Shown here: one piece after another, positions 8,737 through 62,169 of the stretch
Position numbering within the stretch: the first letter of the stretch is position 1
Layout: the number at the start of each line of letters is the position of its first letter
Assembly: GCA_004335835.1 (NCBI GenBank)
Contig: RWJK01001388.1
Coordinates: 209,506-273,505, forward strand
Reading direction: 5' to 3'
Length of the DNA stretch: 64,000 nt
Source: Scenedesmus sp. ARA3
Taxonomy: Eukaryota > Chlorophyta > Chlorophyceae > Sphaeropleales > Scenedesmaceae
Program-made: the position numbers and the translations under genes
Notes under the pieces: model-generated
Databases searched by the model: none
What the model was told of the DNA's origin: nothing
Seen by the model: only the letters and a program-made list of their open reading frames with translations

Positions 8737-8865
8737 ATGCATGCCACCATCAGCCTCATCTTGCGCCAGACATGCATGCAGCAAGCTGCTGAACAAGAGC
8801 TCAATCACAATGGTGTTCTGCCACGCGCTGATACGCCTGCAGATGCAGATGTGCCAAAGCAGCAG

Positions 8866-8901
<36 letters not shown>

Positions 8902-11900
8902 GAGCAAGATCCACAGCAGCAGCTGCAGCAGCTGGTGGAGCCGCAACTTGATGCCAGCAAGCGGCGGCAGCTGGAGGATGAGCTGCGGGACCCTAAGAAC
9001 TTCCTGGAGTGAGTGCGCGCTGCTGCTGCTGCTGCTGCTGCTGCACACATGCAATTCAATGCAATGCAGTACAAAACCTTTCTCGGAGTTTCTGGCACGC
9101 AAGTGAATGCGTTGCCGTGCAAAGATTTCATTTCTGGCTCTGCTGGAAGCACCCATGCTCCGGTAACTCGGTAACGTGATCTCAACAATACAACAACACC
9201 ATTCTGCCCTGGGTGCAGGTACTTCCTGCCCCGCCCGTTGCGGCTCGCCTTTTTCGGCTTCTCAGCTGCCTCCACTTTTGTGGCAGCACTCATCTCAGCG
9301 GCGCAGCTGATACAGGTGCGGCTGGCAGCATGTGACCTGCTGCAGGCTGCTGCTGTTGCTGCTGCCCGCCACAAAACCCTTGTGCAATCGTTTATTATGT
9401 AACCCTGCCGAACATAGCTGGTAGTAACCTGCATCACCTGTGAATTGGTCAATGTCCAGTCCCTGAACACCGCCCGCTGCCTTCCATCGCTCCATCATCT
9501 GTGACATGCTGCAGGAGCCTGCACTGCAGGCAGCAGCGACCGGCGGTGCTCAGAACCTGGTCATAAACGTGATTGGGCTGCTGGTGTTTGGCTGCCTGTT
9601 CTACGCTGACTCAGCGGCTGGTGAGGCCCGTGTGGAGCAGCGGCGGCAGCTGCGGCAGGCGCAGATCAAGTCTGGCGACAGGGAGGTGTTCAGGGATGAG
9701 CAGGGGCAGACGATGTCTCGGCTAAAGGAGGTGAGAGTGCGAGGCAGGTAGTATGCGTGTTAAAATAAAAGGGCTGGCTTCTGCAGCAACTGCGATGTTC
9801 TTGATCCATTGCACCGTCACTGAGGGGCGAGGGAGGTGTTCAGGGATGAGCAGGGGCAGACAATCTCGCGATTGAAGGAGGTGAGGGTGCGACGCAATGG
9901 TATGCATGATAGAAAAAACAGATAGGCTTCTGCAGCAAGTGCAGTTTTGTTGGTCTGCTGCAATGTAACGGCCGAAGAAGGGGAGGGTGCAGGGCACGCA
10001 AAACATATGAGAACTGACTGTCATGTGGTGTTTGCCAGGCGCTGTGGTTGGCATGCTGCGCAACACGCAAGCTGCCAACTGCATACAAGCTGCCAACTGC
10101 ACTGAAGCTGCACCGCGCGGCGCGGCTGCAACACCAATCAATGGTGGCATCATCCTTTTGCAACAGATTTACTACGGTAGTTATGTATATAAATCGCAGG
10201 TGGATGACGACTAGATTTTGCGGCGGCTGGGCGCTGGGGCAAGCGTGCCGGCATGCCCTTCCTGGGGCACAAAAAGATTTCATAAAATGACAGTACTGTC
10301 ATTACTAGTAATAGGTGTGGTAATCCTGCAGATGGATGACGACTGGATTGCGCGGCGGCTGGAGCGCTGGGGCAGGCGTGACGGCATGCCCTTCCTGGGG
10401 CCCAAAAACATTACACAATAATGACAGTAATAGGTGTCATAATCTTGCAGGTGGATGACGACTGGATAGCACGGCGGCTGGAGCGCTGGGGCAAGCGTGA
10501 CGGCATGCCCTTCCTGGGGCCCAAGAAGGCCGCCATCATTCAGCAGCTGCTGCAGCAGCACCAGCCGCAGCTGGCGGTGGAGGTCGGCACGATGGCGGGC
10601 TACAGCGCGATCAAGATCGCACAGGTTTGTGGGCGAACATAATGGAGCAGCGCTCCCTTTTCGCCGCTTTCATGGGCCGCGGAGCGGAGCGGAGATGTGG
10701 TTATTGCTTTCACATCATTGGTGATGTGTTTATGAGGTCGGTGGGCGTGCTTGAGGTGTTTTAGACAGACTTTGAGGGTGCCAACCTCAGATCATGAGCT
10801 GTCAGCGCAGCCGGTCATGAAACCACCACCACGGCGGGCTACAGCGCGATCAAGATCGCAAAAGTCGGTGGGCTTGGTAGACTCGTGTTTTTTTGAGAAT
10901 TTTTTTGGATGCGAGCCTCAGGCCATGGCCTGTGTGCACTGCTGGTAGTCACGCTATGAGCGGCGTGCTCAACAGAGATGGCAGATTGGCTGGTTGCAAA
11001 CGACTATGGCTTGGCTTTTTAGGTTCATCAACCCCACCTTGCTCCTGCCGGCTTGGCACTGATGCATCTGGTGCTGCGGGCCGCCAGTCTGCGGATGCAG
11101 TGACCTCGTTGACAAACACAGCAACTCGGCCTTCACCTCTGTGGCTGCAGCAGTGACCCCATGCTGCACTGCAAGTTGTGCATGCAGGTGCTGCCGTCGG
11201 GGTGCGTGGCTGGTGAGCATCAAGAAGGACCTGAGCTGGCTGCTGGTGGCAGCACATTGATGCATCGACATGGTTCAATAATCAAATGCTTGCATGCACG
11301 ATGGAATGCCTATGTCAACCTCGCGCAGGTGCTTTCACCCGGCGGGCGGCTGGTGAGCATAGAGAAGGACCTGAGCTGGCTGCTGGTGGCAGCGCATTGG
11401 CCGTTCAACATGTTGCAAATGCTCCAATGCTTACAAGCACAATGGGATCCTTATATCCATGTCATGCAGGTGCTTCCACCCGGCGGGCGGCTGGTGAGCA
11501 TAGAGAAGGACCTGAGCTGGCTGCTGGTGGCGAAGCGCTTCCTGTGGCAGGCCAGCCAGGGGGAGGCCAACAAGCAGCGCAGCACACCACTCGGCAGCAC
11601 GGTGAGAATGATCAGCGGAAGGTTATTTTGGTAGATGTGCAAAGGAAACCCCAGTTGAATGCCATCTAGACGTTAATGTTCTCACTCCACAGCTTTATAT
11701 GGGGCAGACCAGCCGAGTGGAAGTGAACAAACAGCGCAGCACACCACTCGGCAGCACGGTGAGGCTGGTCCTGGCACTGCCTGATGAAGCTCAAAGAGTT
11801 GCTGAACCGCATAGCATGCGACTGTTTGTGTCCCAACCAAGTTGCAAGGCAGCTTATCACGGTTGCGCGCTGACTCAGCGTGTTGGTGTTGGTGCAGCTG

Positions 11901-12549
11901 AAGGTGCGCGGCTGGTACAGCAGGGAGCAGCAGGCTCTGTACAGCACGAGCATGGGGGCGACACGCGTGCTGCCATGGGTGCCAAGCCCACCGGCAGCTC
12001 ATGTTGCACCTGTTTCTGGTTCCACCTGCGCAGGCAGTCGAGGGACCTGCAGCTGCAGCGCAACACGCACCTTGACTGCTTGCCATCCGCTGTGTGCTGC
12101 TGTTGCTGCATGCTGCTGCTGGCTGGGGCGCTGCAGGTTGATGTGTGGTGGGGAGATGCTGTCAGCAAGCTGCCAGAGGTTGCCTCCAAGTATGGCAGGC
12201 CGATTGACTTCCTGCTGCTGGATGGCACCCCAAAGGAGACCCTGGCGTACCTGCAGGCAGCAGAGCAGCACCTGTCACCAGGCGCAATGGTGGTTGCAGA
12301 CAATGCAGGTACGCACAGCAAGCTCATGCGTAAGCATAGCCAAGCTAAGATGGTGCCAGGACCCACATGTAACTATCCTCTCTCTCATAGCCAATGGTAG
12401 GTTGCCCTTCGAGCACCCGTGAAGTACACTCTGCGTGACAAAGCCAGCCCCAAGCCATCATCATTAACATCATCATCATCATCACGTCGCCAACCATGCT
12501 ATGTGGACGCTGCTGTAGCTGCATTGTTCAGGCAAAGAGCTGGTGTCAC

Positions 12550-12582
<33 letters not shown>

Positions 12583-12726
12583 GAAGGTGTGTTTGCCGAG
12601 GGTGGCATGAAGCCCTACCTGCAGTACGTGCGCGGCAGCAGCAGCTACAGCAGCCGCTACATTGCCACCACGCTGGAATGGAGGGATGATGTGGAGGATG
12701 GCCTGGAGGTGTCCACGCGACTGTGA
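8737..12726 (+). CDS. DUF3493-like membrane domain fused to a class I SAM-dependent O-methyltransferase
   Basis: Seven exons (8737-9008, 9219-9315, 9515-9730, 10451-10624, 11470-11601, 12137-12308, 12587-12726) join in phase to 400 residues. A polyGln linker leads to ELRDPKNFLEYFLPRPLR and two hydrophobic segments (LAFFGFSAASTFVAALI; LVINVIGLLVFGCLFY). These resemble the DUF3493 region of chloroplast LPA3-type photosystem II assembly factors. The C-terminal half is a Methyltransf_3-type enzyme: AVEVGTMAGYSAIKIAQ (SAM motif I), RLVSIEKDLSWL (acidic ribose-binding residue), FLLLDGTPKE and GAMVVADNAG. Plastid membrane location is inferred. The start codon is tentative because no transit peptide is evident before the polyGln. 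Introns 3-5 are filled with partial copies of adjacent exons. The last acceptor is AAG, preceded by (CTG)n. The methyl acceptor is unknown. Confidence 0.8.
9831..9880 (+). repeat. Echo of the 3' edge of methyltransferase-fusion exon 3
   Basis: This repeats the last 50 bases of exon 3 plus the GTGAGNGTGCG donor 150 bp further on. Four codons differ: three silently (one by two bases, CTA to TTG) and one Met to Ile. Confidence 0.85.
10200..10404 (+). repeat. Two echoes of the 5' edge of exon 4
   Basis: Copies at 10200-10270 and 10332-10404 precede the working exon at 10451. The first is decayed (Trp codon to TAG). The second is open, with two silent changes, Lys to Arg and an initial GTG to ATG. 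Both keep a cag acceptor, and spacing is about 120-130 bp. Confidence 0.88.
10831..10860 (+). repeat. Echo of the 3' edge of exon 4
   Basis: acggcgggctacagcgcgat and the following bases repeat the exon-4 end (GYSAIKIA), but the donor is altered (caaaagtcgg for cacaggtttg). It appears degenerate. Confidence 0.75.
11188..11390 (+). repeat. Two echoes of the 5' edge of exon 5
   Basis: Copies at 11188-11255 and 11329-11390 precede the working exon at 11470, spaced about 141 bp apart and each preceded by gcag. The second is nearly identical (Pro to Ser only). The first carries a frameshift near its start. Confidence 0.88.
11709..11758 (+). repeat. Echo of the 3' edge of exon 5 with its donor
   Basis: It ends acaccactcggcagcacg|gtgag, the same as exon 5 at 11601. 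The upstream part is diverged. Confidence 0.8.
12347..12390 (+). repeat. Dispersed intronic repeat, copy 1
   Basis: The core gatggtgccaggacccacat followed by gtaactatc lies in the sixth intron of the methyltransferase-fusion gene. Related copies occur at 27164-27206 (inverted) and 47501-47537, each also inside an intron of a different gene. Confidence 0.7.
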
Positions 12727-12980
12727 ACTTCACCCTGAGGCGTTCGTGCGGCTGTAAACTTCACATCACGAACTTGTGGTGGGATGATGTGGAGAATGGC
12801 CCGGAGGTGTTCCACGCGGCTGTGAACTTCACCCTGAGGTGTTCGAGTGGCTGTAAACGATCCAATGTGAACTTGTGGCTGGCAATGTGCAGGAAGGAGA
12901 TGCCTAAATGTGTCCACGTCGCTGTGAAGTTCACCCTCAGGTGTTTGTGTGGGCTGCGCTACAGCTTTGAATTCACAGTG
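12680..12980 (+). repeat. Threefold tandem duplication of the gene end and 3' UTR
   Basis: A unit of roughly 105-110 bp containing gatgatgtggaggatggcc, the stop region and ctgtgaacttcaccctgagg begins near 12683, 12783 and 12890. Divergence grows along the array. Confidence 0.8.
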
Positions 12981-19849: not shown

Positions 19850-19894
<45 letters not shown>

Positions 19895-20579: not shown

Positions 20580-20611
<32 letters not shown>

Positions 20612-20720: not shown

Positions 20721-20753
<33 letters not shown>

Positions 20754-20975: not shown

Positions 20976-21007
<32 letters not shown>

Positions 21008-22294: not shown

Positions 22295-22344
<50 letters not shown>

Positions 22345-25039
22345 AGGCCCCGAGGCGTCTGCTGCGCTGAAGGCGGTGATGGAGGTGCTGGACATGAGCG
22401 GGCAGGACGAGGCGGAGCCGCCAGAGGTGAGGCTGTACTGTTGTTACAAGTGTTATGACAAGATCTGGTGATGGGTTGGTGATGGAGCTCCTCGACATGA
22501 GCGTGCAGAGGAGGCGGAGCTGCCACAGGTGAGGAGACCATTACATACATTAGCAAAACAAGTAGTTGAATTGTAACAAGATATGGATGGGTTGGTGATT
22601 GAGGTGCTTGACATGAGTGGGCAGGATGAGGCGGAGCCGCTAGAGGTGCGGAGACCTCTTTTGACTGATTCAAGCCTTGCAAGCAGAGATGTAACAAGTT
22701 ATTCAAGGAATGATGATCGGTTGGTGATGGAGGTGCTGAACAGGAGCGGGCAGGATGAGGCGGAGCCGCCAGAGGTGCGGAGGGGCTGTTGTTAACAGTG
22801 TTATCGTTGATGTGTGGTTGCGTGCTCCAGGCTTGCTGCCACCAGCAGCTAGGCCTGGCGTGGATGCAGCCCAGCCTTTGCAAACCCCAACCTTCAACCG
22901 GTGAACCCTCTGCTGCTGTTATTACACCGCAGAGCTCGCTGCTGGTGCCCATGCTGCGCAACCAGAAGCTGGCCCTGGCCTGGATGTGCCGCCTGCAATC
23001 CACACAACCTGCCTGCTAAACCCAGCCGCTGAGCCCTGCACCTGCTGTTTTCCTCACCAACGCAGAGCTCGCTGCTGCTGCCCTTGCTGGCACAGCTGCC
23101 CTTGGCCTGCCTGCACTCCAGCCTGTGTAACCCTGATGCTCACCCCTCTGCTGCTGTTGCTCAACCCTCTGCTGCTGTTGTTACATCGCAGAGCTCGCTG
23201 CTAGTGCCGATGCTGCGCCACCAGAAGCTGGCCCTGGCATGGATGTGCCGCCTGCAAGCCACCCTAAACCCCTAAAGTTCAAACCCACCTCTGAAGCCTG
23301 TTGCTACTGCTGTTTTGCGCGCAGAGCTCGCTGCTAGTGCCGATGCTGCGCCACCAGAAGCTGGCCCTGGCATGGATGTGCCGCATGCAAGCCACCCCAA
23401 ACATGTGATCATCACACCCCACCTCTAAAGCCTGTTGCTGCTGCTATACTTTGCGCAGAGCTCGCTGCTTGTGCCAATGCTGCGCCACCAGAAGCTGGCC
23501 CTGGCCTGGATGTGCCGCCGCGAGGCCAGCCGGCGTGTGAGTGGCGGCATCCTGGCTGACGACCAAGGCCTTGGGAAGACAGTCACTACAATTGGCCTCA
23601 TCCTGGCACACCCCAGGGGAGGCGACTACCTGCAGGTGCGTCGTTTGGGTTAAAAGATAGCTGCCTTTTGTTGCCATGTGCAGGTGCATGGGTTTTTATG
23701 TGACCAAAAGTGTTGCCCAATGACAGCACTGTTCAAACGCGCAGTTGGCTCCATGTTTTTACGGAATAGCAACAATACATGTGTGTATCACTGCTGCTGC
23801 TGCTGCTGCTGCTCCTGCTGCTGCAGGACATCAAGCAAGAGGGCGACAGTGATGAGGAGTTGGAGGCGCTCATGGCAGCAGCAGGCGCAGCAACCGGCAG
23901 CAGGGCGGCAGCAGCAGCAGCAGCAGCGGGCGCTGGTGCAGTGAGCAGCAAACCTGAGGTGCGGCTGATCCCTGGTGGTGAAACTTGTGGTTGCTTTGTT
24001 GGACAACCCCACTCATCTCTGTTGTAGTAGCAGTGAAGCTGGTGCAATGTGCTGTCAAGCCTGTGCAGTGTGCTGAGTGGTGGTGATCTGTCGGCCAGCA
24101 ACGACGTGTCATTTGCTGAACGCACTTATTGTACCTCTGTTACAACAGGTATCTCTCAAGCATGTAACATATCTGTTAAACTATAACTTATCGTGGGTTT
24201 TAAATGTGCCGCAGGTGGTGGACTTGTTGGAGAGCGATGATGAGGGTCCGGCTGCAGCAGCAGCCAGGCAGCAGCACAGCATGCACAGCAGCGCTACCGC
24301 TGCTGCCGCAGCTGCGGTGCATGCCCTGCCGTTTGCTGAGCATGCAAGCAAGCGCCAGCGGCTCGACGACAGCAGCAACCCAGCAGTAGCAGCAGCAGCA
24401 GCAGCAGCGCAGGGTGATGTGACCGTCATTAGTAGCAGCAGCAGCAGCGATGACGAAGGCGGCGACGGCGGCAGCAGCAGCAGCAGCGGCAGTGACATCC
24501 TCTGCATGTCTGAGCTGCAGGCATCAGCAGCAGACCCCCAGCAGCAGCAGCAGCACGGCAGCAAGCTGCTACCAGCCTCTGCTGCTGCTGCTGCAGCAGC
24601 AGCAGCAACGGCAGCAGCAGTGGCGCGTTTCAGCAGTGTGGCTGGGGAGGCTGCTGCTGCTGCTGCTGCCAGGAAGGCTGCTGACGAGGCAGTAGCAGCG
24701 CTGACAGGTCAGCAGCCTGGGGAGCCGCTGCAAACCTTGGACATAGATGTGACAGGGCTGAGGGGCGGCGTGCTGTCGCGGCTGTGCCAGCAGCAGCAGC
24801 AGCAGCAGCAGGGCCAGCCAGAGGAGCCTGCAGTAGAGCAGGACGTTGCAGGTAGTGCAGATGGCGGTGCTACCTCGCCTGCTGAAAAGCAGGAGCAAGC
24901 ACCACCACAGCAGCAGCAGCAGCCTGACCAGCAGATGCAGGTGCAGGCAGATGCTAGCCAGCCGCTGCAGCTGCAGCAGCAGCAGCAGCAGCCGGACATT
25001 GAACAGCTGCAGGAACAGCCAGAGCAAGCCATGGACGTT

Positions 25040-25084
<45 letters not shown>

Positions 25085-25709
25085 GATCTGGGACAGGAGC
25101 AGCCGCCACAGCAACAAATAGAGCAGCAAGACACAGAGAAACTCGAGCAGCAGCAGGACGGCGACAGGCAGGCGCAGCAGCAGCAGCAGCAGCAGTCAGG
25201 TGATGACCTGGACCAGCTGGTGCAAGTGATCTGGGAACAGATGGAAGACAAACAGGCAGAGCAGCAGCAGCAGCAGCCGGCGGTAGGCGATCAGGACTCA
25301 TCACAGCAGAGGCTGGTGGAGCAACTGCTGGATAACATATTGCAGGAAGATGAGCAGCAGCAGCAGCAGCAGCGCTCCGGATCAGTGCCAGTAGAGCAGT
25401 CAGAGCAGCAAGCGCTACAGCAGCAGCAGCAGCCCCAGCAGCAGCTGCAGATGCAGCAGCCACCACAGCCGGCGCAGCAGCAGCAGCAGCAGCAGCCTGC
25501 TGGCACCTCTGGCTGGAGCATCAGCCGCGGAAGCTTAGCAGACTTGGAGGGCGGTGCACCAGCAGCAGCAGCAGCAGCAGCAGCCAGCGGCACAGCAACG
25601 CCGATCAAAGCCGAGCCGCAGCAGCAGCAGCAGGCCACAGACGACAGCAGTGATGAGGGCGATGTGCAGATCATCAGCACTCCTGCAAAGCCCACACACA
25701 TCAAGCTTG

Positions 25710-25752
<43 letters not shown>

Positions 25753-28700
25753 AAATCACGCTGTCGGCCTGCTGGCGGCTAAACCGCCGCTGGCTGGCGG
25801 CGCTAAACCCCACCACAAGTCCAGCAAGGCGGCGCTGGCGGCGGCGAACAAGGCAGCAGCAGTAGAGGCTGCTGAGCGCAGCATGGTGCCTGGGGGTACG
25901 CTGGTGGTGTGTCCCACCAGTTTGTTGCACCAGTGGGCGAGGGAGTTGAGGCACAAAGTGCACCCAGCTGCTGGCTGCGAGGTGCACGTCTACCACGCCA
26001 AGGTGCGGCAAGCGGATGATTGTTGTGATAAAATGAATAACACAAAGAATGCTTAGTGCAGCAGCACCCGCTGCACTTGCGCGCACACTCCACACTCCTC
26101 TTCCTCCACCTCCCTCTCCTGATGCACTAATGTGCATGTTCCTCTTCGTGCATGTTCCTCGTCATAGCAGTGCGATCGAAACCCTTTCTTCTGCATTGCT
26201 TAACCTGACCCTGCTACAGGACAAGGCAGTGTCACTCAAGGCCTCACCCCTTTCACTGTAGTGCTCACCATCTACGGCACCGTGGCACAAGAAGCACTCC
26301 TCAAAACCCTCAAGTCACCAGCGCTAAACCCTGCTGCTGCCTGCTTAAACCTGAACCCTGCTGCAGGACAAGGCGGTGTCACCCGAAGGCCTCACCCCCT
26401 TCACAGTTGTGCTCACCACCTACGGCACCATGGCACAAGAAGCACCCCTAAAAGACCGCCAAGCCACCAAAAGCAAAAAAGCCGCCGCCGCAGCAGCAGC
26501 AGCCGCTGACAGCGATCCGCTGCAGGATGCCACAGCTGCTGCTGCTGCTGCTGCCAGCAGCAGCAAGGCCGGCAGCGGCAGCGGCAGCAGGGCCGGCACG
26601 GTGCATGCTGCTGCCGGGGGTCCGCTGTTTGCTGTGATGTGGCACCGGGTTGTGCTTGATGAGGCGCAGAGCATCAAGAACGCAAGCACGCTGGCTGCGC
26701 ACGCGGCGTGGAGCCTGCACGCGCGCCACCGCTGGTGCCTCAGCGGCACGCCCATTCAAAACAGCGTGGACGACCTGTTCAGCTACTTTAAGTGAGTCTT
26801 TTGGCTCGATTGTTGGCTGGAATGCAGTTGTTTCTGCGCTTTGTTTTGGGGTTTTCGTGGGAAACAAGGTACGGCAGAAATCAGGTGGTGCTTGATGAGG
26901 CGCAGAGCATCAAGAATGCAAGCACACTGGCTGCGCATGCGGCGTGGAGCCTGCACGCGCGCCACCGCTGGTGCCTCAGCTTCACGCCCATCCAGAACAG
27001 CGTGGACGACCTGTTCAGCTACTTCAAGTAGGTTCAGAATTGTTTCTGATGTTGATTTTGTCGTCATTTGCAGTCGTGCTGGGGCTGCCCTTGACGCAGA
27101 AAGAGTGACAGAATGCTGTTCTTGCGGCATGTGTTGAACACAGTCGCAGGTATTCTGCCCAGGCAGTGAGAGGGAATAGTTACATGTAGGTCCTGGCACC
27201 ATCTTGGATGGTATGAGCCACAACAGGTTGAACACATGGTCTGAGACCAAAAAGGAGACCAGAAAGGAGAGTGAGCACCGTCTCTTGCCCAGGCAGTGAA
27301 TGCCTCGTTCAGCAGCCACCATGGTGGGTCAATGGCCTGTTGCTGCCTGTCTCCCGACTGGCATGCCTGCTGCTGTTGCTGCTGCCAGGTTCTTGCGGCG
27401 GTTGAAAGGAAAAAAGTGTGCTGCAGCCGTGCCAATGTCGTTGATTCATGGTTCTTCCATTCGGTCACTGAAGTCATTGGTTTGCCCCACTCCTCTTCTG
27501 CAGCTGCTGCCGCCGTACTCTGCACCTTGCTGCTCCTGCCACCTCGCTCTCAACGCTGCTCTGCTGCTGCTGCCGCAGGTTCCTGCGCTACGAGCCCTTC
27601 AACCACCCCAAGGCCTTCAAGACGCACATCAAGGAGGAGATAGCACACAACCCGGCCAAGGGCTTCCGCAAGCTGCAGGCACTGCTGCGCGCTGTGCTGC
27701 TGCGCCGCACCAAAGGCAGCACCATTGGGGGCCAGCCCATCATTGCGCTGCCTGAGCGGCGGCAGCAGCTGCTGAAGATCGAGTTCAGCCGGGATGAGGC
27801 TGCGTTCTACAAGCAGGTGCATCTTAGGCTGGCAGGGTTAGAGGTTACGCGGGCACTTGGGATTTCAGGGTTATCAGCTGTTGCCTGATGCATGATGTGT
27901 GGCTGCTGAAGTGCAAGGTCAGCAGGGATGCGGCCGCATTCTACAAGCAGGTGCGGTTTAGGCTGTTTGCACAGTTGATCCCAGCAACTATTGGGGGTTG
28001 GGTTTCAGGGATTTAGGCTGTTGCCTGGTGCGCCATTAAGCTGCTGAGCAGGAGCGAGGCTGCGTTCTACAAGCAGGTGGGTGGGTGGGGGGGGTGCGGG
28101 TTTGAACTGTTGGGTTGATAACCATGGTCTGTGGTAGTTCAAGTGCCACTTGGGGTTGAAAACAGCCATACCTGGTGTATGTTTACTGGTTGTGCCTTGT
28201 GGTTGTGCTGCCTTTGTACTGCATGTGTATTTCCTCCGGCAAGTGGAGGCTGAGGCAGTTGAGTCTCTGCGCAAGATGCAGGACGAGGCAGAGGAGGTCC
28301 CTGCAGGCGGTACAAGCCGCTTCTCTGCCTGTGTACTGCCTGTTTACTGCCTGTGTCCTGCCTCCCGCAGGTCTGGCTGCTGCTGCTGCCGCTGCCGCTG
28401 CCGCTGCTGCTGCTGCTGCGCTAGATGCAGGACAAGGCAGACTTGGCCTGTGCGGGCGGTACATGCATTGCCGCCCTTTTTTGCTGATCCTGTGTACTGT
28501 ATTTGTACTGCCTGTGTATTGCCCCCCACAGGTGGAGGCTGAGGCAGTTGAGTCGCTGCGCAAGATGCAGGACCAGGCAGAGGAGGTCCCTGCAGGCGGT
28601 ACAAGCCGCGGCGGCCGGCAGTACATCAACATGCTGTACCAGCTGCTGCGGTTACGCCAGGCCTGCAACCACCCTTGGCTAGTGCGGGGAGCCCCAGGAA

Positions 28701-31453: not shown

Positions 31454-31499
31454 TGAGTGTCAGTCGTATGGCCGCAGCGGCAGCAACAGCAGCAGCAGC

Positions 31500-45978: not shown

Positions 45979-46029
<51 letters not shown>

Positions 46030-49000
46030 ACCAGGATGCCACTGATGAACGCGCTGGCCCACAGCAGGATCTGCACCGCCACCAGCGTGCGCTGCTGCTG
46101 CTATGTCCGTCAGAAACAAAATCCTGCTGCTGCTGTTGCTGCTGCTGCTCACCAGGATGCCACTAATAAAGGCGCTGGCCCACAGCAGGATCTGCACCGC
46201 CACCAGCGTACGCTGCTGCGCTGGCGCTGCTGCTACTATGTCCGTCAGAAACTAAATCCCACTGTTGCTGCTGCTGCTGCTGCTCACCAGGATGCCACTA
46301 ATAAATGCGCTGGCCCACAGCAGGATCTGCACCGCCACCAGCGTGCGCTGCTGCGCTGGTGCTGCGCGTATGATGGCCTCCAGCCAGCCGCCGATCATGT
46401 CGATCATACCGATCTCAGCCGCACACTCGACCATGACAAACTGCGCCGCAAAGAACAGCAGCATGTCCCACTCCACGCTCTGCAGGGGCGGCAGGGTTGG
46501 GATTCGCAGAAGGGGCAGCAGTGGTAGACAGCAGTGAACAAACATATGGTTTGAGGTGTTGCTGCGGGGCACTGGGCACCACGACGCACAAGCATGCATG
46601 CGCCTGGTACAGCGTAGCGCCAAATGTCAACAGCCAGCTGCTAATGAACATCTGCACCATGTCAGCGCATGGCACCTTCCACACGACCTAAAATCAATGC
46701 TGATTTTGCCAAGCAAGCATTGAAAAGCATAGCCCTGAGCAATGCTTGGATGATCTGTTGCTGCTCACGTGCATGATCTCCTCCACGTCTAGCCTGCTGG
46801 TAATGATGCACAGGATGGACGCGCCGATGATGGCAAACCTGCAAGAGCAGCAGCAGCAGCAACAGCAGCAACGCGCCATATTTTCTGAGGAACAAACCAA
46901 AAGTGCGGAGCTACATATTGTGCCCATGTGCATGACAGGCTGAACTGCGCGTGCCAGGTTGCATGTTCAGCTAGGAACACACTTCTTGCAGCACTGCTCA
47001 CAGCACCGCATAATCGGATCAACCACAGCCAATGCTCGAGTCAAGCACATACACCACGAACATGTCACATGCAAAATGACGAATTCTAGACAAAGCCAGG
47101 ATCGCAAAGGACGCTGGTCATGCACAGCTGCATACCTTTAAGCAATGCTGAGCAATGCTGACATGCATCGTGCAGCAGAGCCTGCTGATGAGCACTCATA
47201 CAAAGCTGAGCTGCTGCTGCTGCTGATGGTCACTTGCATGCTCTGCAGGCTCTCACCATGCTGGGTCCAGGTGGTGCAGCGGGTGCAGCAGGAAGCCCAG
47301 CAGCACCACAACCATCACGTAGCCTGCAGCACACAGCACGCGCAGGCCACAGTTGCAGCCAGGGTTAGGGTTTTAGGGTTGTTGGAACCTACACCTAAAC
47401 CCTAAAGCCGGCAGGCCTGTCAGCACAACACCTCTGAGAGACAGGCACAGGGACCAGGTGCAGCTGGTTTGCCGCGGAGGAGCGAGCACGAGCAATGCAA
47501 TGATGGTGCCAGGACCCACGTGCAACCTCCTCTATGCAGTGTTCTAGCAGTACGCATCAGCAGACCCGCGTCTGACTTGGCCATGCCCATCCCTAGAAAA
47601 ACCGTCAAGGAATCAGGCTATGATTGAAGGAAGGTATTTTGTACACTGGAACATATGGATCTGGGGTGCCAGCAACGTCGCACCTGACGTTGCCATGACA
47701 TCACACTCAAGTAAAGCAGTAAAAGCTGGCGAGCATGCTGTGCAAACAATTAAGTTCTGCGTGAAATGAGCATGTGGGTTGTGCAGTGCCAGCAGTGCCG
47801 CACCTGACTTGGCCATGAATTCTCACTCAAGTAAAGCAGTAAAAGCTGGCGAGCATGCTGTGCAAAGGATGAGGCTCTGTGTACAATGAGCATGTGGATT
47901 CTGGGGTGCCAGTAGCGCCGCACCTGACTTGGCCATGCCGATCCCACTTGAAGCGTCAAAAAATCAGGCTACGTATGATTGAAGGAAGGTCTTTGTACAC
48001 TGGAACATATGGCTGCGGGTGCCAGCAGCGCCGCACCTGACTTGGCCATGAGGTCCCACTCAACTACAGCTTTGAAGACATAGGACAATGCTGTACAAAG
48101 GAAGGGGTTATGCATACAAATGGCGTATGTTTTTAGTGCCATCAGCGCCGCACCTGACTTGGCCATGAGGTCCCAGTCTGTGACCCTGTACTGTCCCACA
48201 GTGGACAGCACCTTGCTGTAGTCGGGGATGGGCCCCAGCAGCTCCTTGCGGTACAGCCACAGGATCAGCGCAGCAGCGGGCACACTGGCGGCAATCACAC
48301 CTGCATGCACATCACACGTAACAGGTCACACATTGCCTGATATGATGCCAGCAGGGGGGTGTGCAGGGTTGCATCTAGCATTACGGGCAGCATCGTGAGA
48401 GGGGCAGCGGGGGAGCAAGCTAATCACGGGGCAGCCACAGCACAAAGCCCCACCCCATCCCCCTGATTCGCCTTTCAAGCTACTCCTCAAACCCTCTCAC
48501 CTGGTGCCAGGATGAAGTCCACGAAGCCCAGGTAGCGCTGCACAGCTGCAGGCTTGCGCTTGTACCCCAAAACCATCCCGGCCCCACCTCAATTTGCGTG
48601 AAACTACACCGTAAACCGCCTCACCTGGCGCCAGGTGCAGGATGAAGTCCACGAAGCCCAGGTAGCGCTGCACAGCTGCAGGCCTCCTGTAAACCCTACA
48701 CCTGACCCACAACCCCCTGGTTTGCCTATAGCTACGCCCCAAGCCCTCTCACCTGGCGCCAGGTGCAGGTTGAAGTCCACGAAGCCCAGGTAGCGCTGCA
48801 CAGCTGCAGGCTTGCGCTTGTACCCAAAACCATCCCGGCCCCACCTCAATTTGCGTGAAACTACACCCCTAACCCTCCCACCTGGTGCAAGGTGCAGGAT
48901 GAAGTCCACAAAGCCCAGGTAGCGCTGCACAGCTGCAGGCCTCCTGTGTGCCCTGTAAACCCTCAACCCGACCCATAAACCCATGATTTTCCTGAACGCT

Positions 49001-52000
49001 ACCCGTCAAACCCTCCTCACCTGGGGCCAGGTGCAGGATGAAGTCCACGAAGCCCAGGTAGCGCTGCAGCGCGGTGCCGATGATGATGTTGGGCGGGTCA
49101 CCCACCATGGTGGCGGTGCCGCCTGCAGACGATTCAAAACACAACATGATAATGAGCATTACCAATCAAGAGAAACAGAAGACGCACACCAACCTTGCTA
49201 CTAATACAGAGCTCTGTAAGTGACAGGGAAGGCATACGCAAGCAACAGGCACGCAGAGGCAGCCGCACCAACGTGCCGCATAGGTGGTGGAACATTATCT
49301 CCTGCAGCAGATGCGCTGGCGGCTGCCGTACAATGCATATGACGTCATTCTAGCATGAACCTGCTGTGCCCACTGTGTTGACTCACCAATGTTGCTCATC
49401 AGCACCTGCAGCAACAGAGATGCAGCGCACAGCAGCAGGCGCAAGTGTGTCAGCACTGGAAACCACTGTAGAGGTTTACACAGGCGCGCATGCACAGGCA
49501 GCACAATCCTGCATTGCTGCAATGCTGCACCCTCATGCAGCACCCATACGGCATGTGTTAGGCACCTCCCGCAGCACTCCTGCAGCGCAGCGCCTGAACA
49601 GACCATACACCAGCCAGGCGCAGCTACCCTGCTTGTCCACCGTACATGCAAACATCAGTGACATGTCATAGCTCAAACTCAACAAGATGCCATGTCGTCA
49701 CCTGTGCCATGAGCATGGGGCGAGGGTCCCTGCCGTTTGCTGTCTTCATCATGCTGATGGTGATGGGGCCCATCAGCAGCATGGTGGTCACGTTGTCCAG
49801 GAAGGCAGACACGCAGGCTGCAGCAGCAAACAGAATAAAAGACAGATACACAAACAAACCTGTCAGTCACTTGCTGCCTGAGGAGTGTGTGGGTGAGGAT
49901 GCTGCCAGCAGGCCCACACTTGGCATCAGCGCTCTGCAGAGGACTGCCCCGGCCTACAACCGCCAATCGCATCACCTGGATGCAGCACCTGCTGCTGCTG
50001 GTGCTGCTGCTGCTGTGTACCTGTGATGTACATCATGAGCAAGCTCAGCAGCCGATTCTCTTTCCCCTGCCGCCGCTCCTGGCCCTGCTGCTGCTGCTGC
50101 TGCTGCCGCTGCTGCTGCCGCGGTCACCTGTGATGTACATCATGAGCACGCTCAGCAGCCACATCTTGCCCCTGCTGGCCTTGAGTGTGGCGGCGCACAG
50201 CACCTCAAAGAGCCCCGTGTCCTTGAGCTTGCCCACCAGGATCATCATGCCAAACAGCAGGCCCAGCGTTGACTCATCCAGAAACTCTGTCACCTACAAA
50301 GTATGTGATGCAAACGAAAGGCAGCTGAATGAGCTTGTTCAACCAATTCATCATGCCAAACAGCAGGCCCAGCGTTGATTCGTCAAAGAACTCTGTCACC
50401 TGTGGTAGCGGCAATACAACAGCAGCAGCTGAGTCAGCAGATGCCATGTGTCCTTGAGCTTGCCCACCAGGATCATCATGCCAAACAGCAGGCCCAGCGT
50501 TGACTCATCCAGAAACTCCGTCACCTGTGACACAGCACAAGGGTGTGCAAATGAAAGGCAGCTGAGTGAGCTTGCCCACCAGGATCATCATGCCAAACAG
50601 CAGGCCCAGCGTGGACTCATCCAGGAACTCCGTCACCTGCAAAGTGTGTTATGCAAACGAAAGGCAGCTGAATGAGCTTGTTCAATCAATTCATCATGCC
50701 AAACAGCCCTAGAGTTGACTCATCCAGGAACTCCGTCACCTGCAGCATAGCACACGGGGTAATGCCAGACGCTGCAACAGACGTACATGCTGGTGGATGT
50801 GGGTGACAGAGTACATCATGCCAAACAGCAAGCCCAGCGTAGACACGTCCAGGAACTCCGTCAGCTGTAGCGCAGTGCATAATCAGTTACACCCACGCAA
50901 CCAGCCGCAGCTGAGTCAGAGGATGCATTCGCTGACAGGTGCAGGGGTGATGACACAAGTAGCGACATGCGGCACCACACGTGCTGAACTGAGAAATGCT
51001 GCAGTCTCTATGTCCAGCGGAGCTACATCACTGCAGCTGAGCTGCCTTGTTACTGCACTCTTTTTTGCCATTGCCTTGCCCGCAACGCCCCGTTGCGGGC
51101 AAGGCAACGGCAAGGAAGAGTGCAGCAACAAGGCAGCTCAGCTACAGTGATGTAGCGTCACTGATGACATAGAGATTGCATTGTGGTGCTGCAGCAGCCA
51201 CCTGAGGTTCTAACACTCCCACAGCTCAAAGGCACCCCAGCCGCGCTCACCTTGGCCAGGCTAGGCGTCATGTTGCACCACAGCAGCAGGCTCATCATGG
51301 CAAAGGCAGCCACGAAAGCGCACCACATGCGGTGCACCTGCAAGCCATTACACAGCAATGCACTGTCAGCAAGCTCTCCCAGCCATCTGTGAGTGATTAG
51401 CATGGAATCAAGCTGTCTGACGAGCACATACATACACAGACACATCCTTTGGATGTACAGCACCGTGTGACAGCAAGCGGGAAACAACACAGCAGTGTCA
51501 ATCAATGCTGCTGTGGCGCCTGCGCGGTTGCCACCATGCACACTGCCCCCAACAAACAGGGAACAGCTGATGATCATGAAGATGAAAGCTGTGAAGAAGC
51601 ACAGTCATCTTCTTGTGTATTTTTATTTCAGCTTTCAATGCCTTCAGCGCGTCACCTTTTCCGTGGCGATGGCCACCAGCATACCCAGCAGTATGGCCAG
51701 CGCCAGCCAGTTCTTGGCATAGCCCAGCTTGCCGATCTCGCTGAAGTGCAGCTCCACAGCCACCTGCAGCAGCAGCAGCAGCAGCAGCAGCGGCAGAGCA
51801 GCGGAATTAGGAGCTATGGGCCGGGCATCAATAACACTGCAATTACAGCACAGCTTAAATCCTGGCACGAGAGCTTGACGGATACTGGCGCACACATGGG
51901 CAGCAGGATGGCACAAGCCCATGCCGCTGCAGAGACAGCCACACAGACCATAAAGGTTCACACAACTGAGCACGAACGTGGCACACAGCAGTTGCCGCCC

Positions 52001-54120
52001 TCACCTGGCCTGGCCTGTTGAGCGACAGCACCAGGAAGTTTTCAGCAGACAGACCACAACATACACATCACTGTGCACACAGGCACTACATAGCAGTCCA
52101 TCAGCAGTTGCCGCCGTCACCTGGCCTGGTGTGTTGAGTGACAGCACCAGGAAGTTCTCCTGCCCTTCCTCAAAAGCATCGCTCAAGCTGCTGGTAGTGA
52201 TAGCAGCATTGCACTTGACCGCCTGCCCCTCTTTGAGATTACAAGTCACGGCCTGGCTCACAGAGTGGAAGCCATATGCAGCCGGCGACAGCACTGCATT
52301 TGGCAGCGCCTCTATGCTCGGTGCTGCGGCGGCTGCAACGGCGGCTGCTTTCGTGGTGTTGCGCTGCATGATCTGCATTGTGAGCTGTGGGGGAGCTGAG
52401 GGCTCGGGGCCGCCAGGGGGTGCTGCTGCTGCCAGCACGCGGCGTGGGTGGCTGAGCTGCTGCTTCATGAGCTGCTTTAGGTGCAGCGCCTGCAAAGCTG
52501 CTGGGTCCTGCGACGCCAGGAACAAACAACAGTACAGAAGATTATGCGGTATGCTCTAGGGCAGATGATCAACTGGCGAGGCGGTGACTCCTGCCATGTA
52601 AGTGTTGGTGACAAACTGGTGTTACAACCATGTGTTGGCTCGCTGCCATCGGACTTGAGTGTCGTCCCAGAAGCTAGGGGCGCACCCGCGCCGCCAGGCC
52701 CCTTCAGCAGCCAATCAGCACTTTCCTGTAGAACCTGCTGCAACTGCTGCTCATCATGCTGCAACACATCACCATGCCATGCAAGGTACACAGGCAGCAC
52801 TGCAGCAACACAGCAACACATGCTGCGTGCACACACGAGGCTGTGCTGCAGAGCTGCAGAGCTGCAGCATAGCAAACATGCAACAGCTTCCTCACCAGCC
52901 TGTAGCCAGAAGCTCCTCACCCACCTTAAGTGTGCGGCCCGCCGCTGCTGCTGCTGCTGTGCCCCCCACCCCAGCGGCAAACAGCGGCTCCAGCAGTGCA
53001 GCAGTGTGCTGGCTGACTGCGTCTGCTGCTGCACCAAGCAGGCCCCTGCGCCTGCGCCTGTGGCCGCCGCTGCTGTCGCCTGCTGCTCCATGCCAGGGTG
53101 CCGCAATGTTTGCTATGTACAGGTACTTGCTGCGCGCACACGGTGGGCACCAGGCAGGCAGGGCAACACCAACAGCAGAAAGCCAGGTGTGCAGTGAGCT
53201 ATGGGGCCATGTGCACACGCAGTTCCGCTGCTGTCACTGCAGATGCTGGGAAGCGCACAGACACGGTCTGTGCCCTTGCTGTGAAAGCCGCTGTCATGGC
53301 AACCAGAAAGCTACTGCGGCTGTCCTTGAGCAACTCAGCTGCCTGCATCGCCGGCACAGCCACCCCCTGCACTTCAGCGCACTACTAAACCTCACATTGG
53401 TGCGCTGCCCAGCGGCACAAAGTAGGGCTCCGCGCTGTTGACTGCGTGCACGTGCTCCAGCGGCTCCGCCACGTGCAGCCTGCTCTTGCCCAGCAGGACT
53501 ACTGTGAGCACGCCGCCGCACAGCAGCAGCACCCACAGGTTGCGCAGCAGCGCCTTAGCCGGGCTGATGTGCTTGGCGGGGTGTGCCAGGTGGTTGTGCT
53601 CCAGGTCATCCAGCCGCTGTTGAAACACAAAGTGATATTTGTTTTGAAGTGAGTGAGTTGGGTGAAGAGGTGCTTGCAGGAAACAGGGAACAGTGGGATA
53701 GAAGAACAACATGAGCCACTATCACAGCCACTGCTGAGTTGCCTGCTGCTTCGACAAGCACAAAGCAGCTGTTCAAACGAGCACAGAGGCGACGGACATG
53801 ACTATTGCTGTTCTAGTGCCGTGAGCTGCAGGTGCCGTCTGCTGACACATGCTGCAGCCTCTCACCAGCTCTATGAGCTCCTCTGCTCTGTGCGATAGCA
53901 CTGCATGGTGCGGCATAGTGCCGCATGTGCCGCCTGGCACGTTGTCTGTGGCATTGCTTGCCGTTTCAATGCTACGCCGGGCCTTCTGTTGTGCTAGAGC
54001 TCTGTGGTGCTGCTCATGTGTGTATGTGTCAGAGCGCACGCTGCTGCAGACGCTGGTGCGACCCAGGGAAGGTGCTGCAGTCCCGGTATCCTTGCTCAAG
54101 GCATCCGCTCCGTCGGACAT
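44838..54120 (-). CDS. Ion transporter superfamily protein, OCA2/P-protein-like (ArsB/NhaD, citrate-transporter-like)
   Basis: Eighteen phase-consistent exons give about 807 residues. On the minus strand they are 53866-54120, 53396-53616, 52925-53129, 52121-52507, 51656-51763, 51251-51337, 50128-50293, 49702-49817, 49387-49405, 49021-49122, 48154-48300, 47257-47323, 46769-46838, 46288-46479, 45714-45736, 45438-45492, 45138-45225 and 44838-44953. The layout is that of P protein: a hydrophilic N-terminus, one membrane segment ([17 protein letters not shown]), a long soluble loop, then about a dozen membrane spans. Signature motifs are [53 protein letters not shown] (23-nt microexon 45714-45736) and [14 protein letters not shown]. 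The transported ion and membrane are unknown. A protein-like stretch at about 52640-52758 may be an extra exon, but no in-phase donor was found. Six introns contain exon echoes. Confidence 0.88.
46027..46245 (-). repeat. Two echoes of the 3' edge of the transporter's DNIPYT-preceding exon
   Basis: Copies at about 46027-46115 and 46151-46245 repeat [19 protein letters not shown] with the GTGAGCAGC donor of the exon ending at 46288. Both remain open across the match. Confidence 0.9.
47065..47150. repeat. Dispersed repeat, copy 2
   Basis: The reverse complement of the segment at 752-832 (atgacgaattctagacaaag, gctggtcatgcacagctgc) lies in a transporter intron. Confidence 0.7.
47361..47406. repeat. 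Short interstitial telomere-like tract
   Basis: agggttagggttttagggtt is followed about 15 bp later by the opposite-strand form cctaaaccctaaa. The unit matches plant/algal TTTAGGG and TTTTAGGG telomere repeats, but there are only two to three units per side. Confidence 0.4.
47501..47537 (+). repeat. Dispersed intronic repeat, copy 3
   Basis: gatggtgccaggacccacgt, related to 12347-12390, lies in a transporter intron. Confidence 0.6.
47567..48060 (-). repeat. Five echoes of the 3' edge of transporter exon 11
   Basis: Copies end near 47571, 47684, 47804, 47924 and 48037 at roughly 115-bp intervals. They repeat LMAKSG (ctgacttggccatgaggtcc on the plus strand) and the GTGCGG donor of the exon ending at 48154. 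The units carry surrounding intron sequence, so whole exon-edge-plus-intron units were duplicated. Confidence 0.9.
48504..48935 (-). repeat. Four echoes of the 3' edge of transporter exon 10
   Basis: Units of about 120-130 bp repeat [16 protein letters not shown] with donors like that at 49021. Each also has a tgcag acceptor at its 5' side, so each looks like a 40-50-nt cassette exon. Differences are mostly silent. One copy has Ile to Asn and one an in-frame loss of His-Leu. Confidence 0.93.
50019..50050 (-). repeat. Echo of the 3' edge of transporter exon 7
   Basis: ctgtgatgtacatcatgagc repeats the exon end at 50128 (SVLMMYIT) with its donor, about 110 bp further into the intron. Confidence 0.8.
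50347..50864 (-). repeat. Five echoes of the 5' edge of transporter exon 7
   Basis: Copies at 50347-50399, 50449-50524, 50566-50636, 50691-50739 and 50811-50864 repeat [17 protein letters not shown]. The two longest extend through ILVGKLK. All keep an AG acceptor and lack a donor. Most differences are silent. The 50691 copy has lost one Leu codon in frame; the 50811 copy has Val to Leu and Glu to Val. Confidence 0.93.
51000..51180. repeat. Near-perfect 181-bp hairpin (about 88-bp arms, 3-nt loop) in a transporter intron
   Basis: The arms run from 51000 and 51180 to the centre at 51087/51091 (ccgcaacg/cgttgcgg). There is one small bulge near 51015 and a handful of mismatches. The hairpin lies in the intron 50294-51250. 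It could be a foldback/MITE element or a long small-RNA precursor. Confidence 0.92.
52003..52041 (-). repeat. Echo of the 3' edge of transporter exon 4
   Basis: cacctggcctggcctgttga repeats the end of the exon at 52121 ([10 protein letters not shown]) with its donor, about 120 bp further on. Confidence 0.85.
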
Positions 54121-59355: not shown

Positions 59356-60693
59356 TCAGGGATTCCGCAGGATCGGGATGTGGTACTTCGCCTTAGGCCC
59401 CGCAGGCCCCGTGCGCTGCGCCTTTGCTGCACCACCACCACCGCCACCACCACCAGGCCCCTCCTTTCTCTTGCCTCCCCCTCCTCCTCCGCCGCCGCCT
59501 TTGTTACCTCGGTCCTGCCAGGTGCTTCGGCTGAGCTTGCAGGGCCGGTTGCCGATGTACTTGCCGTTCATCTCTTTGAGGGCCTTTGCAAAGTCGTTGC
59601 CGTCCAGCAGCGACACAATGCCGAAGCCCTTGCTCTTGTTGGTGCGCTTGTCGCGGATGATCTGCGGCAGCAGCAGCAGCAGCACAATAGGGGCAGCGCA
59701 GCGGTGTGGGGTGGGGCTTTGGACAAGCGCACAATGCAGCGCCAGGTGCCAAAGCACTTGATCGTTCCTGGTGCATTTTTGCAGATCATCTGCGGCAGCA
59801 GCCGCGGCGGCAGCGGCCGATGTGAACTCTGCGCGTATAACCAAGCACACAACAACTGCAAGCGGATGTCCAAATCGCGACACCTGCGGAACACATGCAC
59901 ACAAAGGAACACACCGGCACGTGCGGCGGCTGAAAGAGAAACAAGCGCGCAGCGCCACCCCTTCACCTGTGCTTCTGCAAATACAAACGAAGGGCACCGC
60001 TTGAAGGCCTTGCCCTGATGGCTCGTCGTTGTTATCCAAAGCCCACACACCAACAATGATGCAGCAATACAGATCAGGCCACTCACCTTGGCCTTTGCAA
60101 AGAAAGGATACCGCTACAAAGGCCGTCCCCAAGGCCTTCAGATTGACCTCATTGCCCATGTTCCCATCATGTTCCTAGCCACGCGTTACAGCTGAAAGGC
60201 ACCTAAGACAAAGAGCCACCGCACCCACCTTTGCCTTGGCAAATGAGGGATAGCGCTGGAAGGCTTTTCCCAGCGCCTCATCGTTGACCTCATTGCCCAG
60301 GTCACCCACGAAAATGCGGAAGTCATTGTCCGGCCACTCGCTCAGCGTGGGGTCCACCCAGCGCCTGCCAGCAGCCTCGCGCAGCACCACCTGCAGCAGC
60401 GGCAGCAGCAGCAGCAGCAGCAGCAGTGGCGGCAGTGGCGGCAGCAGCAGCAGGATGTGGCAGGAGTGACGAGAATGTCCAGATCATCAGAGAGTGACCT
60501 GCCGCCAGGCTGCTGCAACATTGTGTCACACAATGACGCAGCACATGCGTCCAAGGGTTCACAACACACGCTGCCTCCCCTGCACCGACTGAAGCCTCAT
60601 TGCAAACATACGGAGCGCCTCATCAGCAGCGTATCAGGAGCCCCAGTAAGGGCCGCTGCTGATGAGCAGCGTTGCCGCCACATGCTGCCATCC

Positions 60694-60734
<41 letters not shown>

Positions 60735-61386
60735 GCTGCTGCTGCTGCCGCTGCTGCAGGTGGTGCTGCTCAAAGCTGCTGGCAGGCGCTGGGTGGACAA
60801 CACATCGCACATCGCGCACCTTCTTACTGCTGCCGGCGCCGCCGCCGGTCGCTTTGCCGCCCTTTCCATCCGCCTGCTTCTGCTGCATCAGCTCCTCCTT
60901 CAGCTTGCGCAGCGTCTCGGCATCTGCAGGGGCACTGCCTGCTGCTGCTGCTCCGTGCTGCTGCTGCTGCATTGGTGGAGGCGGGAAGCGGCCATCCATA
61001 CCACCTCCCATGCCCCCTGGGTGGTGCATGTGGTCTGGCGGCCCTCCCCAGCCGCCGGGGCCGCCGTGCTGCTGCTGCTGCTGCTGCTGCGGATAGCCGC
61101 CGTAGCCTGCTGGGTGCTGCGGCATGCCATAACCTGATACAGATAATAGATAAAACAGAGGGAAAAGGCGCTTTTCAAGGCTTATTGAGACGTGATGGGG
61201 CTACAGTCGCGGCTACGGTGACAAAAAGTACGCCTGTGATTTGAAGTTTGCTTTTTGAGTCCGTGCAGAGTGTGTGGGGCTACAGGGCCCTACCTCTGTG
61301 GTGGCGCTGACAGTTGTCGGCCGCTGTTGCTGATGTTGCCTACCAAAAACACAACCCCACATTCCTTCACCTACACCCGGAGCACA

Positions 61387-61427
<41 letters not shown>

Positions 61428-62169
61428 GCTCTACATGACAAAAACATATCACGTACTCTAAGAAGCCGTGCCTCAGCGGTAACCCCTGCAACTGCATGCC
61501 ATGCAAGACAGCCCTTCGTGGCCTTAGTGACAACTTCAGTGCAATCTCACAAACACTGCATGCCGCCTGCTTTATACAACAATTCCAATGCACTCACCAG
61601 GCGGGGGCCCTCCATGCTGCTGCTGGCCCATGTACTGCTGCTGCTGGTAGCCACCCATACCTCCTGCTGCTGCTGCTGCTGCTGCAGCAGAGGGGCCGCC
61701 ATAGCCACCTCCACCCGGTGCTGGCGGCAGCTGCACCGGCGGTGGCTGCAGCACCGGTGGCGGCACTAGCGGCGGCGGCGCTGCTGCTGCTGCTGGGGGC
61801 GGCCGTAGCGGCGGCGGTGCTAGTGGTGCTGCTGCAGGCTGGTGTGCTTGGCTGTCCACCTGCAGCAGTATGCAGGCAGCAGGACGGTGACGTTTGTGGT
61901 TGACTATCGGATGGCAAAGTCCATGCTGAGCAGTGCTGCTAACAGCAGATTGTAATCAAGCAAGAAACGAAACCATCTAGTGTGAGCACAGGATAACTAT
62001 CGTGTTATCATCGTACCTGTGCCACAGGAGGGGGTAGCACTGGTGGAGGTGCTAGGGGAGGAGGTGCTGCTGCTGCATCGTCTGCTGCTGCTGTCTCCGC
62101 TGCCACCGCCTGCTCCACGCTCTTGAGCTCGGCTGCAAAGCGAGCGAACTCTTCGTCTAGGTCAGCCAT
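59356..62169 (-). CDS. RBM42-like RNA-binding protein (single C-terminal RRM)
   Basis: Five exons (62017-62169, 61598-61859, 60820-61133, 60229-60390, 59356-59661) join in phase to 398 residues. The N-terminus MADLDEEFARFAAEL is followed by a Pro/Ala/Gly-rich region (PPPLAPPPV; GGYPQQ; GGPGGWGG) and a helix (LRKLKEELMQQKQ). The RRM contains RNP2 (FRIFVGDLG), NEVNDEALGKAFQRYPSFAKAK, RNP1 (KSKGFGIVSL), EMNGKYIGNRPCKL and STWQDR. These are the diagnostic block order and spacing of RBM42. The C-terminus is a polyGly stretch ending HIPILRNP. RBM42 proteins act in pre-mRNA handling in the nucleus. Introns 3 and 4 carry echoes of exon 4, one of them inverted. Confidence 0.9.
59780..60167 (-). repeat. 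Echoes flanking RBM42-like exons 4 and 5
   Basis: About 60084-60167 and 59965-60020 repeat the 3' edge of exon 4 (NEVNDEALGKAFQRYPSFAKAK) with decay. About 59780-59805 repeats the 5' edge of exon 5 (gatcatctgcggcagcag on the plus strand). All lie inside intron 4. Confidence 0.8.
60760..60802 (+). repeat. Inverted echo of the RBM42-like exon-4 5' edge
   Basis: gtggtgctgctcaaagctgc tggcaggcgctgggtgga on the plus strand matches the minus-strand sense sequence of exon 4 from 60390 down. It includes the preceding CTG tract and cag acceptor. It therefore lies inverted in intron 3 and can pair with exon 4 in the transcript. Confidence 0.85.

Follow-up and report, generated by a model that had tools for sequence, protein, structure and literature searches.

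Introns of the green alga Scenedesmus sp. ARA3 contain many partial copies of the exon edges that flank them. Each such copy, consisting of the edge of the neighbouring exon together with its splice site and lying inside the intron, is referred to here as an echo. This study was concerned with a 64-kb stretch of contig RWJK01001388.1 (the window; C1018:209506-273505 of an 87.3-Mb assembly of 1567 contigs) and with further stretches of the same genome, so that all results refer to one genome only. The echoes are real, occur genome-wide and are found far above chance. They form tandem arrays, are dense in the sample, lie at predicted exon edges, carry a splice site on one side and show a step in similarity at the junction. 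In the reading favoured here, existing introns become longer through ongoing tandem duplications of about 95-175 bp that span exon edges, and exon and echo probably exchange sequence. We consider this reading, taken as a whole, to be reasonably likely.

Occurrence of echo arrays

The sample consisted of the window and 25 other 10-kb stretches, 304,076 non-N bases in total. The stretches were drawn from large contigs and not at random. Exons and introns were predicted by our own gene finder, which was trained on a hand-made model of the SNF2 gene and which called some echoes exons. A junction was counted as carrying an echo at a score of at least 36. Array counts vary with the similarity threshold chosen and give minimum numbers for old events.

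Self-comparison of the window, using a low-complexity filter, gave 46 forward repeat pairs, and 44 of these were spaced 98-571 bp apart. The three inverted pairs were each separated by more than 14 kb, and none was local. The program Tandem Repeats Finder (TRF) detected nine of the window's arrays, with periods of 99-150. Arrays like those given for the window in the preliminary description of this DNA were also found outside it, in 17 of the first 20 sampled stretches. No pairs were left in these stretches after block shuffling, and a single local inverted pair was present. In total, the window and the 25 stretches contain 99 local tandem arrays.

The arrays are associated with exon edges. 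An echo was present at 102 of 406 predicted junctions, compared with 5 of 1049 mismatched controls. Arrays joining an exon end and an intron end made up 71 of the 99, while 2000 circular shifts gave a mean of 30.0 and a maximum of 45. Arrays confined to introns numbered 10 (34.1 by shifts) and those confined to exons numbered 2 (8.6 by shifts). The deficit of intron-only arrays arises partly because intronic similarity is lost faster. In addition, two of the window's three intron-only arrays were exon-edge arrays misread by the automatic rule (11181-11763 and 49981-50175).

Echo load was uneven. Predicted stretches on one strand that had three or more tested junctions numbered 35, and any of them may contain more than one gene. 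The unevenness among these had a simulation P of 0.0002. GC content at third codon positions (GC3), intron GC, GC skew and exon number did not predict the load of these stretches (Spearman P 0.23-0.74). Searches of the genome with kinesin and ABC sequences were of no help in counting echoes. Within the window, echoes had initially been described in five genes. They were recovered at 4 of 10 junctions in the methyltransferase fusion, 10 of 19 in the SNF2 region and 21 of 37 in the transporter, the last two counts including some echoes that the gene finder called exons. However, none was found at the 26 tested junctions of the cyclopropane-synthase fusion gene (33.5-43.5 kb, minus strand), and the RBM42-like gene has one borderline echo (score 35). 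The echo-free gene (window 33500-43500), which we take from its residues to be a fused amine-oxidase-like and cyclopropane-fatty-acid-synthase gene, adjoins echo-rich genes. A Pfam scan of ten open reading frames put a name to little.

Anatomy and origin of echoes

In the window and the first 20 stretches, 68 of 94 arrays were typed by junction, 40 at donor edges and 28 at acceptor edges. The 26 untyped arrays were left out of the codon tests, which covered these same sequences and not L035-L039, the five stretches added later. One window array (30117-30772) was typed on a miscalled exon and stayed among the 68. A score cut reduced the mapped echoes from 120 to 114. Their spacing is unimodal, with 94 of the 114 spaced by less than 200 bp (mean 130, standard deviation 20) and 18 more by 200-300 bp. 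There was no excess of multiples of three (34/41/39 modulo 3, n=114).

The median length of the copied exon part is 64 bp (87 echoes). The splice site is retained in most echoes (GT, 66 of 72; AG, 42 of 48). Splice-site scores of echo and exon were 6.34 versus 6.46 for donors and 5.4 versus 6.49 for acceptors, and random intronic controls scored -0.65 for GT and 0.62 for AG. At the far edge of the echo, which was scorable in 87 of 114 echoes and left unscored in 27, a second splice site was not found above control. The fraction with a far-edge score above 2 was 0.41 versus 0.37 in the control for donor-type echoes (51 echoes) and 0.03 versus 0.15 for acceptor-type echoes (36 echoes). Echoes are half-exons with one splice site of nearly full strength.

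Echo and exon are identical at 0.88-0.92 of positions up to the junction and at 0.89 over the first 6 intron bases. Farther into the intron identity is 0.71-0.73, and random aligned pairs give 0.61. Young arrays, however, are similar over the entire unit. In 12 of 104 high-identity pairs the length of similarity was at least the period minus 8 bp, and junction-crossing examples of whole units were found in L031 (148 bp at a period of 148), L026 (150 at 142) and L018 (190 at 138). Since young arrays are similar over the whole unit, the event is best described as a tandem duplication of DNA, with the step at the junction arising later. The initial suggestion that exon-intron junctions are duplicated repeatedly and introns grow in this way is thus borne out by these arrays, and applies genome-wide. 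Two window arrays lie on coding ends with stop codons (12679-12952 and 31394-31627), which indicates that splicing need not cause the duplication.

Under the proposed mechanism, small tandem duplications, typically of 95-175 bp, would keep arising in the genome. Those straddling an exon edge would be tolerated because the original edge keeps its connection to the exon body and remains in use, and the extra edge with its splice site would stay in the intron and be removed with it. Each event would lengthen the intron by about 130 bp, and repeated events would build arrays. A preference for the outermost donor or acceptor, when nearer ones are almost identical, would fit exon definition. The intronic half of the unit would then decay freely. 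The coding half would stay alike for longer, partly owing to purifying selection on the exon and probably also through exchange between exon and echo, which would in addition eliminate echoes that harm the exon when their sequence is transferred to it.

A further idea, put forward only tentatively and in our estimate doubtful, is second-order selection. If exchange is frequent, a harmful change in an echo would endanger the exon, and tens of thousands of non-coding copies would evolve under the shadow of protein constraint while introns grow around them. Scaled up naively to 87 Mb, the 99 arrays found in 304 kb would correspond to about 28,000 arrays, a figure that carries over the non-random choice of stretches from large contigs.

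Coding signal, probable exchange and alternative explanations

Differences between exon and echo were counted at codon positions 1, 2 and 3 as 168/155/432, which confirms the silent third-position bias first noticed by eye. The per-site ratio of positions 1+2 to position 3 from these counts is about 0.37. The ratio of 0.22 obtained from synonymous and nonsynonymous counts is too low, as 102 multi-change codons were excluded from it. Composition was rejected as the cause of the bias, the neutral third-position expectation being 0.32. About a third of the echoes (39 of 114) have a frameshift or a single-change stop, in agreement with the minority of damaged copies reported earlier, and the other 75 have neither. 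Sister-echo pairs were too scarce (9 of 70), and three of the nine came from one array. The most silent-biased array is L018:8886-9377, in which all four differences between two of the echoes are silent.

It had been argued in the preliminary description that random decay of non-coding copies would not favour silent sites. This holds only in part. The comparison of a constrained exon with a free copy already produces an excess, and from the exon's own spectrum we estimate that the third-position share should be about 0.42-0.47. In 33 single-echo arrays the share is 0.55 (95% confidence interval 0.48-0.63), so that the silent excess left over is modest.

Exchange between exon and echo, by gene conversion or unequal exchange, is probable for several reasons. 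First, mosaic tracts of identity between copies were found when 25 arrays were tested (Fisher P=0.0006; individual P<0.05 in 7 of them), a modest signal from one genome. In L018, for example, the closest echo agrees with the exon over its 3' half and the intron, but not over its 5' half. Secondly, among the 41 pairs whose introns could be aligned, divergence at codon positions 1+2 is 0.35 (0.26-0.47) of intron divergence, and at least 0.5 would be expected of a free copy. Third, the coding halves were almost unchanged in 10 of 55 pairs with an intron divergence of at least 0.30 (smallest P values 4e-7 and 7e-6). The clearest case is in L034, where echo and exon agree at all 49 exonic bases and their intron flanks differ by 43%.

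Plain neutral decay would account for the arrays by random tandem duplications with no exchange between exon and echo. The step and the silent excess would come from constraint on the exon, from indel-prone introns and from the detection of only those echoes that have a well-kept coding half. Several results are those expected from decay. Coding indels in echoes ignore the reading frame (46 of 54 are not multiples of three), and stops stand to nonsynonymous changes as 8 to 181, where about 8.3 stops are expected under neutrality. When changes were polarised, those private to the echo (75/80/129 by codon position) were far less third-biased than those private to the exon (9/5/39), and the 16 youngest pairs fit the ratio of 0.5. 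However, neutral decay is at odds with the third-position share of single-echo arrays, with the mosaic tracts and with the strongly diverged pairs whose coding halves are almost unchanged. In addition, in 32 triples the less-changed echo was the more third-biased one (15/17/40 versus 66/56/86), which is the opposite of its prediction. Thus, decay without exchange is regarded as unlikely, but it is the alternative to be taken most seriously.

A second alternative, raised in the preliminary description, is that echoes serve, or served until recently, as alternative exons and are kept by selection on the protein. The overall silent bias, the 75 undamaged echoes and the near-exon strength of their splice sites would all be expected of such exons. 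Two L018 units can be read through in frame, and relatives' proteins include one with a doubled peptide (P0122) and one with echo-like residues (P0121). However, the far edge lacks a second splice site above control, the spacing shows no preference for multiples of three, indels ignore the frame and stops are at the neutral ratio. The cassette-exon and multiple-of-three ideas were dropped on the far-edge and spacing tests.

Proteins of relatives also argue against alternative exons. The transporter was compared with T. obliquus protein P0001, which is 88% identical over our own gene model, in which one echo replaced part of an exon and another exon was missed, and nearly identical elsewhere. 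All seven transporter edge peptides are single-copy in P0001. The SNF2 gene is 99% identical to T. obliquus protein P0121 over the aligned part, and each SNF2 edge peptide checked is single-copy there, save one that is absent. From these two matches the genome is that of a Tetradesmus, probably T. obliquus. Protein P0131 spans four array-bearing edges of the L018 ATP-grasp gene, each in a single copy, and at the silent-biased array L018:8886-9377 it has the residues of the exon without the echo-only peptides. As P0131 is a reading frame of 629 amino acids on a contig of at most 2.9 kb, it is probably derived from a transcript. Judging from these proteins, echoes appear to be removed by splicing. 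Alternative use is therefore considered very improbable, and echoes are probably intronic. An excerpt of PMC12899622 reports intron retention in the gene it treats, and echoes in retained introns may in that way reach RNA.

The earlier link to AGGT Tandem Genomic Duplication, in which introns themselves are young duplications of an exon segment, is likewise very improbable: similar flanks (score of at least 30) were found in 61 of 325 introns versus 10 of 1356 mismatched controls, and offsets of 4, 9 and 10 bp in three of the 25 best are close to register at about chance level, but in none of the 61 do donor and acceptor come to within 3 bp of the register that the model requires (70 bp per side, single best alignment), and the arrays carry existing splice junctions and intron sequence, two in the window sitting on stop codons.

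Several points weigh against the reading of continuing duplication with exchange. The stretches L035-L039 yielded only 5 arrays, and nothing was found among the gene properties compared to account for the contrast between echo-rich and echo-free predicted genes. Arrays show no decrease in age in the direction of the exon (16 near, 14 far, 2 ties). Clear relatedness of the intron flank, exceeding the 95% random level, is seen in just 60% of the 114 pairs, and intronic gaps are inflated by misalignment, random pairs having 8.4 per 100. The 16 youngest pairs (intron divergence below 0.15) give a ratio of 0.49 (0.23-0.87), as a free copy would. Old pairs are detectable only with a coding half that is still similar, which biases the step and ratio tests; because this bias pushes the same way as the exchange signal, exchange is held as probable only. 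The case for splicing-out comes from relatives' proteins, and P0001 and P0121 are annotations. P0121 has one copy of the echo's KMQDEAEE and none of the exon's KMQDQAEE, at a place where it leaves the SNF2 exon model. P0122, from Scenedesmus sp. NREL 46B-D3, has VHIYHAK twice in a row at the position of window exon end 26002, as if an echo existed in the sister species and the annotation had included it. Thus, the models of P0121 and P0122 may include echoes.

A separate observation concerns the SNF2 array at window 28204-28609, where the exon codes Q and the echo codes E. Both P0121 and P0122 have E. Either this echo keeps what is likely the older state (E), or P0121 was annotated through the echo.

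Related systems, implications and window features

Tandem exon duplications and mutually exclusive exons are adjacent coding copies in one gene with intact splice sites. Echoes are likewise neighbouring coding copies with intact splice sites, but each is only the edge of an exon with one such site. Minisatellites and other intragenic repeats are head-to-tail arrays that grow and shrink locally. Echo arrays share the head-to-tail, local arrangement, whereas their unit is long, narrow in size (about 130 bp), tied to exon edges and present at about a quarter of predicted junctions. Arrays of this kind were not found described in the open-licence literature, as judged from titles and abstracts among the matches listed.

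Differences in intron length between lineages are often ascribed to transposons. Stepwise duplication of exon edges would be a different and countable route to longer introns, seen at about a quarter of the tested junctions. The mean intron length in this species (taken as probably T. obliquus) is 462 bp in a published table, compared with 230-302 bp in the other green algae listed in it, which makes it about 1.5 to 2 times as long (PMC5966456). The arrays also raise the question of how the spliceosome ignores several near-perfect splice sites with matching exon sequence. Annotators should be cautious because echoes look like exons to gene finders: our own called several of them exons, and a relative's protein has a doubled edge peptide.

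A passage of one review calls Tandem Genomic Duplication the only mechanism of intron gain shown in vivo (PMC3443670, citing Hellsten et al. 2011 and Gao and Lynch 2009). As described there, it resembles the present case in that local tandem duplication inside genes alters intron content. However, it doubles an AGGT exon segment and places a new intron between the copies, whereas here the copied unit includes an exon edge that was already present, and it is an existing intron that becomes longer. Introners, in an excerpt of PMC9860276, are associated with rapidly changing intron content, reported for the most part from fast-evolving lineages, green algae among them. Such change is common to both, but Introners are described as dispersed copies of one element in many genes, whereas each echo copies its own neighbouring exon. 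When window 22300-28700 was compared with its own genome (40 of 1771 candidates scored), nothing long was found besides itself, a ~95-bp element and short repeat-like pieces.

This ~95-bp element lies in an SNF2 intron (window 27165-27260). It is dispersed over at least 39 other places in the genome, in both orientations and with 86-95% identity, among the 40 of 1771 candidates scored. What looks like a related piece is present at window 12347-12384. The element had no Rfam match and could be a miniature inverted-repeat transposable element (MITE), a short interspersed element (SINE) or an Introner.

Table 1. Arrays and single echoes in the window, by gene.
Feature	Position	Strand	Details
Methyltransferase fusion, donor-edge array	9680..9955	+	functional exon ends 9730, echo edge ends 9880
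Methyltransferase fusion, acceptor-edge array	10196..10528	+	functional exon starts 10451; echoes start 10200, 10332
Methyltransferase fusion, donor-edge array	10588..10873	+	exon ends 10624, echo edge ends 10863
Methyltransferase fusion, merged acceptor and donor array	11181..11763	+	acceptor exon starts 11470, donor exon ends 11601; automatically scored intron-intron
Methyltransferase fusion, copies of predicted coding end with stop region	12679..12952	+	without splice site
SNF2, donor-edge array	22375..22804	+	exon ends 22426; three echoes
SNF2, acceptor-edge array	22838..23519	+	exon starts 23459; four script-mapped echoes (one under the later score cut) and one degenerate copy by eye
SNF2, acceptor-edge array	26179..26469	+	exon starts 26367; one echo
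SNF2, donor-edge copy	26648..27029	+	144 bp of exon; exon ends 26791; 8 of 120 compared exonic sites differ in the echo, intron flank about 42% different
SNF2, donor-edge array	27768..27965	+	exon ends 27816
SNF2, acceptor-edge array	28204..28609	+	exon starts 28532; echoes start about 28243 and 28371
SNF2, merged acceptor and donor array	30117..30772	+	acceptor exon starts 30299, donor exon ends 30436; automatically typed on echo miscalled as exon (30095-30229)
SNF2, copies of coding end including stop codon	31394..31627	+	downstream of stop; without splice site
Transporter, donor-edge array	46003..46365	-	exon 46288-46479; echoes 46153-46215, 46032-46094
Transporter, donor-edge array	47558..48178	-	exon 48154-48300
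Transporter, donor-edge array	48453..49068	-	exon 49021-49122; four echoes 124-139 bp apart
Transporter, donor-edge echo	49981..50175	-	exon's last base about 50128 (from P0001 and sequence); echo wrongly called exon by gene finder, array automatically scored intron-intron
Transporter, acceptor-edge array	50217..50871	-	exon starts 50293; five echoes
Transporter, donor-edge array	51986..52159	-	exon 52121-52507
RBM42-like gene, weak borderline donor-edge echo	60080..60302	-	score 35

Two other repeats were observed in the window. A minisatellite with a 41-bp unit is present in 6.5 copies at 3455-3725 (97% matches). An inverted pair of 85 bp with 87% identity (47068-47152 and 754-832), its members 46 kb apart, is probably another dispersed element.

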